Source of the DNA: a bacterium
GTDB lineage: Bacteria; Oederibacteriota; PGYV01
DNA: 64,000 nucleotides
Direction: 5' to 3'
Assembly: GCA_029565735.1 (NCBI GenBank)
Contig: JAKQNO010000105.1
Location: forward strand, 1 to 64,000
Shown here: one piece after another, positions 20,714-21,000 of the stretch
Layout: every line of letters begins with the position of its first letter
Numbering within the stretch: the stretch's first letter is position 1
Made by a program: the position numbers and the translations under genes
Notes under the pieces: model-generated
The model's input: only the letters and a program-made list of their open reading frames with translations
The model's database searches: none
What the model was told of the DNA's origin: nothing

Positions 20714-20722
20714 TGTTATAAT
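20714..20722 (+). promoter_or_regulatory. extended -10 promoter of the tRNA-Pro unit
   Basis: TG-T-TATAAT (20714-20722) with only a weak -35 (TAGTAA at 20694). The predicted start falls near 20728, exactly at the first TTGAATAG leader, so both truncated copies below would be transcribed ahead of tRNA-Pro. Confidence 0.5.
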
Positions 20723-20727
20723 TCCCG

Positions 20728-20914
20728 TTGAATAGTCGGGGCGTAGCACCTGATAAAAAATGAGGAAAAAAGTTATGATACTTATCAGGTACACTTTCTC
20801 CCTGATATGATAATTTTTTGGTTGAATAGTCGGGGCGTAGCACCTGGCGATTTATGAGGTTTGCTTTTTATGATAATCGCCTGGTACACTACCTCCTTAT
20901 ATGATAATATTTTG
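20728..20914 (+). repeat. two tandem pseudo-tRNA-Pro leader units with covarying hairpins
   Basis: Units 20728-20821 (94 nt) and 20822-20914 (93 nt) each start TTGAATAGT followed by CGGGGCGTAGC, the first 11 bases of tRNA-Pro. They skip the D-arm and continue ACCTG as in the anticodon stem. A hairpin then opens that differs between copies but stays paired: ACCTGATAA/TTATCAGGT (748-756 with 782-790 of this kilobase) against ACCTGGCGATT/AATCGCCTGGT (842-852 with 875-885; 10 of 11 pairs). Each unit ends in a GATAAT box before the next TTGAATAG. Unit 2 has ACCTCCTTA at 20891-20899, identical to the 3' end of 16S rRNA. Confidence 0.8.
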
Positions 20915-20923
20915 TTGAATAGT

Positions 20924-21000
20924 CGGGGCGTAGCGCAGCTGGCTAGCGCACCTGCCTTGGGAGCAGGGGGTCGCTGGTTCAAATCCAGTCGCCCCGACCA
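20924..21000 (+). tRNA. tRNA-Pro (UGG)
   Basis: Acceptor CGGGGCG/CGCCCCG, D-arm GCGC-AGCTGGCTA-GCGC, anticodon arm CCTGC-CTTGGGA-GCAGG with anticodon TGG, T-arm CTGG-TTCAAAT-CCAG, encoded CCA. It is the intact end of the tandem unit series that starts at 20728. Confidence 0.96.

Follow-up and report, generated by a model that had tools for sequence, protein, structure and literature searches.

Among the described systems closest to the locus reported here are the MITE-like YPAL/RU-2 elements of Yersinia and RPE elements of Rickettsia, that is, non-coding repeats of less than 200 bp which form long stem-loops, contain internal inverted repeats and are bordered by direct repeats of their target (PMC2229807). 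YPAL targets span or adjoin a dyad symmetry and are duplicated over 3-26 bp, and RPEs occur in the tmRNA and M1 RNA genes (PMC2229807). Partial and complete copies of a tRNA are left as direct repeats by integrative elements, namely phages, ICEs and islands (PMC9897764), and 3'ETS-leuZ is a transcribed 3' spacer of a tRNA precursor that acts as a sponge (PMC6191717).

The locus considered here lies in a stretch of 64,000 nucleotides from an Oederibacteriota genome (hereafter 'the window'), in which tRNA-Pro(UGG) is preceded by two tandem units that begin as the tRNA itself does. Our analysis confirms that these units exist, that they are structured and conserved, and that they recur at tRNA starts; the papers that we searched held no comparable description of them. 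tRNA genes are highly constrained, yet here their starts are copied in arrays, each copy closing on itself; the evidence is strong for at least two phyla, and others contribute single examples.

Architecture of the array before tRNA-Pro(UGG)

All features of the array lie on the plus strand. The stub CGGGGCGTAGC is found exactly at positions 20737, 20831 and 20924, the third copy being the start of the true tRNA, and the leader GTTGAATAGT, located before unit 1 (20727-20736), recurs before unit 2 and before the tRNA. Unit 1 (20737-20830, 94 nt; R1, 85.6 bits with a model that includes it) consists of the stub (20737-20747), identical to nucleotides 1-11 of tRNA-Pro and representing the 5' strand of helix P1, a P2 hairpin (20748-20790) with the arms ACCTGATAA (20748-20756) and TTATCAGGT (20782-20790) and the apical sequence ATGAGG...TTATGATA, the closing strand CTTTCTCC (20794-20801), which pairs with the unit's own stub in a P1 that is weak in this unit, and the leader. 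Unit 2 (20831-20923, 93 nt; R1, 88.1 bits, the model again including the unit) likewise starts with nucleotides 1-11 of tRNA-Pro (20831-20841), and continues with a P2/P3 hairpin (20842-20885) whose arms ACCTGGCGATT (20842-20852) and AATCGCCTGGT (20875-20885) contain a single T-T mismatch and enclose an apical ATGAGG (20854-20859), followed by the closing strand CTACCTCC (20889-20896), which pairs with the stub as GGGG.GUAG to form P1. The intact tRNA-Pro(UGG) (20924-21000) follows directly, and 3' of it lies tRNA-Arg(UCU) (21036-21112), which, judging from the spacing, is probably part of the same transcript. The original prediction of two pseudo-tRNA-like units ahead of tRNA-Pro is thus confirmed, and the same order, that is, nucleotides 1-11 of tRNA-Pro, a long hairpin with an apical motif, a strand complementary to the stub, and the leader, with the complete tRNA after the units, is found in each Pro unit. 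Stub and leader together constitute direct repeats of 27 nt in the window and of 33 nt (25+8) in genome G006 of the same order, with one mismatch allowed on each side.

The best promoter-like match, TTGACG-17-TATATT (20637-20665), is conserved in the genus and located further upstream than the -10 box proposed originally; transcription from it would put the units into the 5' portion of the tRNA precursor. In G010, a genome of another family of the order, a promoter-like TTGAAA-17-TAAAAT is likewise located upstream. The possibility that each unit represents a duplicated promoter (TATGATAAT) was rejected, since the match is weak (9/12 positions) and G010 retains little of the sequence. A small open reading frame starting at ATGAGG was also rejected, the ATG-led frame differing between the units. 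Against Rfam 15 only tRNA reaches its gathering threshold, with no other family at or near threshold, which agrees with the earlier statement that no described class fits.

Pro units in related genomes

In the window's own genome, one further unit is located before tRNA-Pro(CGG) and a unit tail before tRNA-Pro(GGG), and the Pro unit is confined to tRNA-Pro loci, that is, it is not dispersed. Of two genomes from the same genus, G002 carries one unit at the TGG locus and three at the CGG locus, and G001 carries none at TGG and one at CGG, so that copy number ranges from 0 to 3 across two loci of three congeneric genomes. The TGG site of G001 reads leader, stub and tRNA without a unit, in flanks resembling those of G002, and is a precise empty or lost site. 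G006, which belongs to another family of the order, carries a unit at its TGG and its GGG locus; the GGG one is syntenic with the CGG/GGG locus of the window's genome, a MerR gene and a downstream gene being common to both. At the loci examined in other members of the order no unit was found, and the distribution is patchy.

A covariance model built from ten units and searched against 45 genomes of the phylum matched, beyond its own members, two units in G010 and one in G013 (E-values of 2e-7, 1.6e-6 and 1e-4). These genomes represent a third family, and each unit lies 5' of a tRNA-Pro; no match was located away from tRNA-Pro 5' ends in the 45 genomes. Homologous units near tRNAs of related genomes, whose absence the original prediction had named as grounds for abandoning it, therefore exist. 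Every tRNA-Pro in the G010 operon possesses its own unit, and G010 exhibits a near-complete acceptor mimic, GGGGCG/CGCCCCGAC. Orthologous units are 0.92-0.93 identical between species, compared with 0.57-0.77 for their flanks.

Two further observations concern tRNA ends in these genomes. On the minus strand of contig C114 of G001 (locus L039, ~520-720), tRNA-Pro(CGG) is followed by an inserted palindrome of the GAAGCGAGTGA type and then by a second copy of its own 3' end (ATCCCTCTCGCCCCGACCATGAGATATAGTGT), a 3'-end counterpart of the same phenomenon. Upstream of tRNA-Val(CAC) in G010, the first 20 nt of this tRNA are exactly duplicated and followed by an insert.

A second type of unit at tRNA-Arg

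A second kind of unit is found on the minus strand of the window before the intact tRNA-Arg(CCG) (20350-20425). It spans 20426-20590 and comprises a leader, the stub GCGCCCG, a hairpin (TTTCAGGCAAAGCCTGAA), a conserved insert, a pseudo D-arm (TAGCTCAGTTATAGA) and again a leader. The insert also occurs before tRNA-Arg(ACG) in all three congeneric species, in truncated form in the window's own genome, and the first hairpin of the Arg units varies from locus to locus yet remains paired (AGGC/GCCT, GTGC/GCAC). The complete insert has a fold z-score of ~0 and hence no exceptional stability, so that its conservation is one of sequence and a stable fold was rejected. Homology between this insert and the one at tRNA-Val in G010 was likewise rejected, their resemblance being only marginal (p ~0.01).

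Fold, covariation and the closing strand

In minimum-energy folds of unit 2, the stub GGGG.GUAG pairs with CUAC.CUCC just 3' of the hairpin, and each unit is predicted to form one closed P1-P2-P3 hairpin in which the tRNA 5' strand serves as one arm. Fold z-scores of 13 units range from -1.8 to -8.4, with -1.8 for unit 1 and -4.1 for unit 2. Repetition of the tRNA start likewise exceeds chance: in three genomes, 9/30, 3/35 and 2/31 tRNA genes have their own 5' stub again within 150 nt upstream, compared with 0.3-0.8% when the stub comes from another isotype. The P2 stems comprise seven unrelated sequences, and pairing is kept in all: ACCUGAUAA/UUAUCAGGU, ACCuGGCGAUU/AAUCGCCuGGU, ACCUGACGAU/AUCGUCAGGU, CCUGAAAAAG/CUUUUUCAGG, CGAGCAG/CUGCUCG, UCCGGAAAGAG/CUCUUUCCGGA and CCGUAUAAU/AUUAUACGG. 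The covariation originally noted between the arms of units 1 and 2 is thereby borne out, and the same is seen in eleven further units from relatives. The apical motif is similar throughout, reading GAGGAAA..UUAUGAUA within the genus and GGAA..AUUAUUAG in the other families.

The closing strand occurs in the 13 units as CUUUCUCC, CUACCUCC, CUAUCCUC, CUUCCGCC, CUUCCCG, CUACCCGG, ACGCCCCG and ACACCCCG, and tracks the stub rather than the apical GAGG. This bears on the pseudoknot that had been proposed between GAGGT (20856-20860) and ACCTC (20891-20895). Both sequences are indeed present, but ACCTC is part of the strand that closes the unit on its own stub and follows that stub across all 13 units; a GAGG/CCTC pseudoknot is hence not needed and was rejected, pairing of ACCTC with the apical GAGGT being an alternative at best. 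Nor did the proposed equivalence of the unit 2 tail with the 3' end of 16S rRNA hold: the 16S-like ACCTCCTTA is confined to this one unit and is a side effect of the closing strand, so that a 16S mimic was rejected.

A 90-nt hairpin of this kind might act in trans, RNase P and trailer processing releasing RNAs of ~90 nt whose partners would be tRNA enzymes, anticodon nucleases or other RNAs. The 5' processing site of the tRNA coincides with the unit's first nucleotide, the unit is reminiscent of an acceptor helix, and the regulatory tRNA spacer 3'ETS-leuZ provides a precedent (PMC6191717). However, a conserved single-stranded pairing region is absent apart from the short apical motif, and the units of the window possess neither anticodon nor T arm; we thus regard such a small RNA or decoy as improbable.

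Predicted effect of the units on the tRNA acceptor helix

Partition-function folding, which describes equilibrium only and ignores the order of transcription, yields for the tRNA-Pro of the window an acceptor-helix probability of 0.998 with the leader, 0.35 with unit 2 and 0.06 with both units. With a bare stub the value is 0.006, with the closing strand mutated 0.001, and with shuffled inserts 0.07 on average. Across 29 loci the median is 0.56 for native inserts, versus 0.14 for shuffled inserts (p=3e-4) and 0.05 for the bare stub (p=3e-3). This model calculation supports the view that native inserts have been selected for self-closure, and the value of only 0.06 with both native units implies that insulation is incomplete at equilibrium.

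The same values bear on a reading that we consider possible, if well short of probable, namely that the unit is a cis-acting leader RNA: it would imitate its tRNA's acceptor stem, a factor would bind the apical motif, and P1, by opening or closing, would determine whether the stub takes hold of the tRNA 3' strand, and so tune tRNA maturation or level. The alternative folds are near-degenerate in the window (0.35) and at several loci, the P1-P2-P3 architecture is conserved over three families with compensatory stems, and G010 contributes both its acceptor mimic and a separate unit for every tRNA-Pro of its operon. On the other hand, the alternative pairing is not conserved, since G010 keeps the tRNA fold at 0.98, a terminator-like site is absent from the window locus, and the units are patchy within the order, being gained or lost between close species.

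Units in Gastranaerophilales and other bacteria

A scan of 84,980 genomes for the tRNA-Pro 5' repeat yielded, among the matches listed, many chance hits as well as clear arrays, above all in Gastranaerophilales. There the pattern is CGGGAYGTRGC-ACTCTGCCGA-(variable paired hairpin)-GAGAGG..GGTAGCGC, and in its strict tRNA-Pro form it is found in 49 of 192 genomes (reversed-pattern control, 0/192). The left core motif ACTCTGCCGA is invariant in an alignment of 34 units, in part by construction, since units deviating there had been set aside beforehand. Covarying stems occur in many genomes; those of Gastranaerophilales were judged sequence by sequence as well as by alignment, because MAFFT/RNAalifold on full units misaligned the variable stems. 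The tRNA part of the direct repeat amounts to 11-13 nt. Three pattern matches on viral contigs were all ordinary tRNA pairs or fragments.

Units in this order are not restricted to proline. One genome has a unit within 150 nt upstream of nine of its 30 tRNA genes (Pro twice, Gly, Arg, Ala, Lys, Met, Phe and Val). A model of the Pro core detects up to 20 copies per genome: (i) before Pro, Met, Val, Leu and Ile tRNAs, (ii) reversed, on the opposite strand, at the 3' ends of tRNA-Leu and of tmRNA, the latter assigned by eye from sequence, and (iii) in repeats away from tRNAs. Hence, in Gastranaerophilales the core is a dispersed palindromic repeat. The core and the units of the window have their architecture in common; we do not claim homology.

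The stub agrees with the downstream tRNA at 11/11 positions in 44 of 46 core-anchored Gastranaerophilales units and at 10/11 in one; for most of these loci the retrieval pattern itself prescribed stub positions 1-4, 7 and 8 and restricted 5 and 6. At positions 6 and 9 the stubs vary together with the tRNA (Fisher p ~1e-10 and 6e-12), p-values that overstate independence because of the units' shared ancestry. At five Met and Val loci, which the model retrieved, the stubs are quite unlike these and again match at 11/11. The 11 bases before the stub agree at 6.6/11 on average in the 46 units, as would be expected if a target duplication covered only the stub. For the cis-acting leader RNA, stub identity kept next to such divergent leader bases counts in favor, and the reversed cores at 3' ends and those away from tRNAs count against.

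Several further observations were made in these and other genomes. Longer dispersed Gastranaerophilales repeats at six loci contain the same CACTCTGCCGA...GAGAGG core, and some also self-close (CGGATTTG...AAATCCGG). In genome G059, the Gly, Arg and Phe units contain 15-nt perfect antisense copies of the D-arm region of the downstream tRNA. Hairpin-bearing pseudo-tRNA-Pro units, unrelated in sequence and either single or in arrays, are located 5' of tRNA-Pro in Dyadobacter, in Chitinophagales, at four further Bacteroidota loci, at three loci in Clostridia and at one in Omnitrophota.

One may then ask whether the units are plain debris from tandem duplication of tRNA 5' ends, with hairpins that arose by chance or template switching. 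Direct repeats of stub and leader, easy gain and loss, and the antisense D-arm copies of G059 fit such an origin. Yet inserts and apical motif are conserved across families, unit identity exceeds that of the flanks, stems covary in many genomes, and stub identity is kept where leaders differ; debris is thus an improbable explanation. Rather unlikely, in our estimate, is a new, scattered class of tRNA-leader RNAs, in which hairpin-capped copies of the 5' strand, one to several per tRNA and with isoacceptor- or clade-specific hairpins, would compete for the 3' acceptor strand and set tRNA yield.

Proposed origin and comparison with known systems

We favor, with a probability of roughly 0.48, the reading that the unit is a small palindromic repeat residing in a spare tRNA start, self-insulating and tolerated by the tRNA, and possibly co-opted as a leader RNA. 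By likeness to the Gastranaerophilales units, a hairpin element would insert at the end of a tRNA and duplicate its target there, such that an intact tRNA remains, and recombination between the identical stubs would then change the length of the array. Left open, the stub would rival the genuine tRNA in pairing with the 3' acceptor strand; the insert would be kept closed for this reason, the hairpin hiding the spare 5' strand. Such a repeat origin would explain the direct repeats, the patchiness, the changes in copy number, and the reversed and non-tRNA copies of Gastranaerophilales. Since the Pro unit is not dispersed in its own genome, its mobility is argued by analogy with another phylum. 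We identified no mobilizing enzyme; RAYT/Y1 transposases were rejected as candidates, because the presence of this family does not track that of the units. A Y1 (HUH) transposase-like gene matching PF01797 is located on the minus strand of the window (60385-60681).

Conservation above the flanks and the identity of stub and tRNA in 44/46 units suggest more than tolerated debris, and thereby leave room for a cis-acting leader function, which we rate second. Whether a tolerated repeat with a safe landing site or a control of tRNA maturation, the units constitute a class of structured RNA or DNA that is absent from Rfam, and they account for odd tRNA-like pieces that may turn up in automated annotation.

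Compared with the att fragments of integrative elements, the units of the window differ in that they copy the 5' part of the tRNA, lie less than 100 nt apart and carry conserved hairpins; they abut the tRNA, with no integrated element in between. T-box leaders likewise couple an RNA structure to a tRNA, but the units precede a tRNA gene rather than an amino-acid gene and lack an Rfam match and a terminator, and neither a covariance-model match to a T-box or attenuator nor an intrinsic terminator is found at the window locus. They resemble 3'ETS-leuZ as tRNA-precursor spacers that could act as RNA, and differ from this 3' spacer in being located 5' and in copying the tRNA start. The likeness to the MITE, YPAL and RPE type is that of small (93-94 nt), non-coding units with a long stem-loop, flanked by a target duplication. 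Unlike elements of that type, the units are not dispersed in the window's genome, dispersal being seen in Gastranaerophilales; as dispersal is lacking in the window's order, we do not file them as members. Distinct from YPAL and RPE as well, the window unit occupies a spare tRNA 5' end and leaves the tRNA intact, builds its outer stem with the tRNA 5' strand as one arm, and is arranged in tandem arrays.
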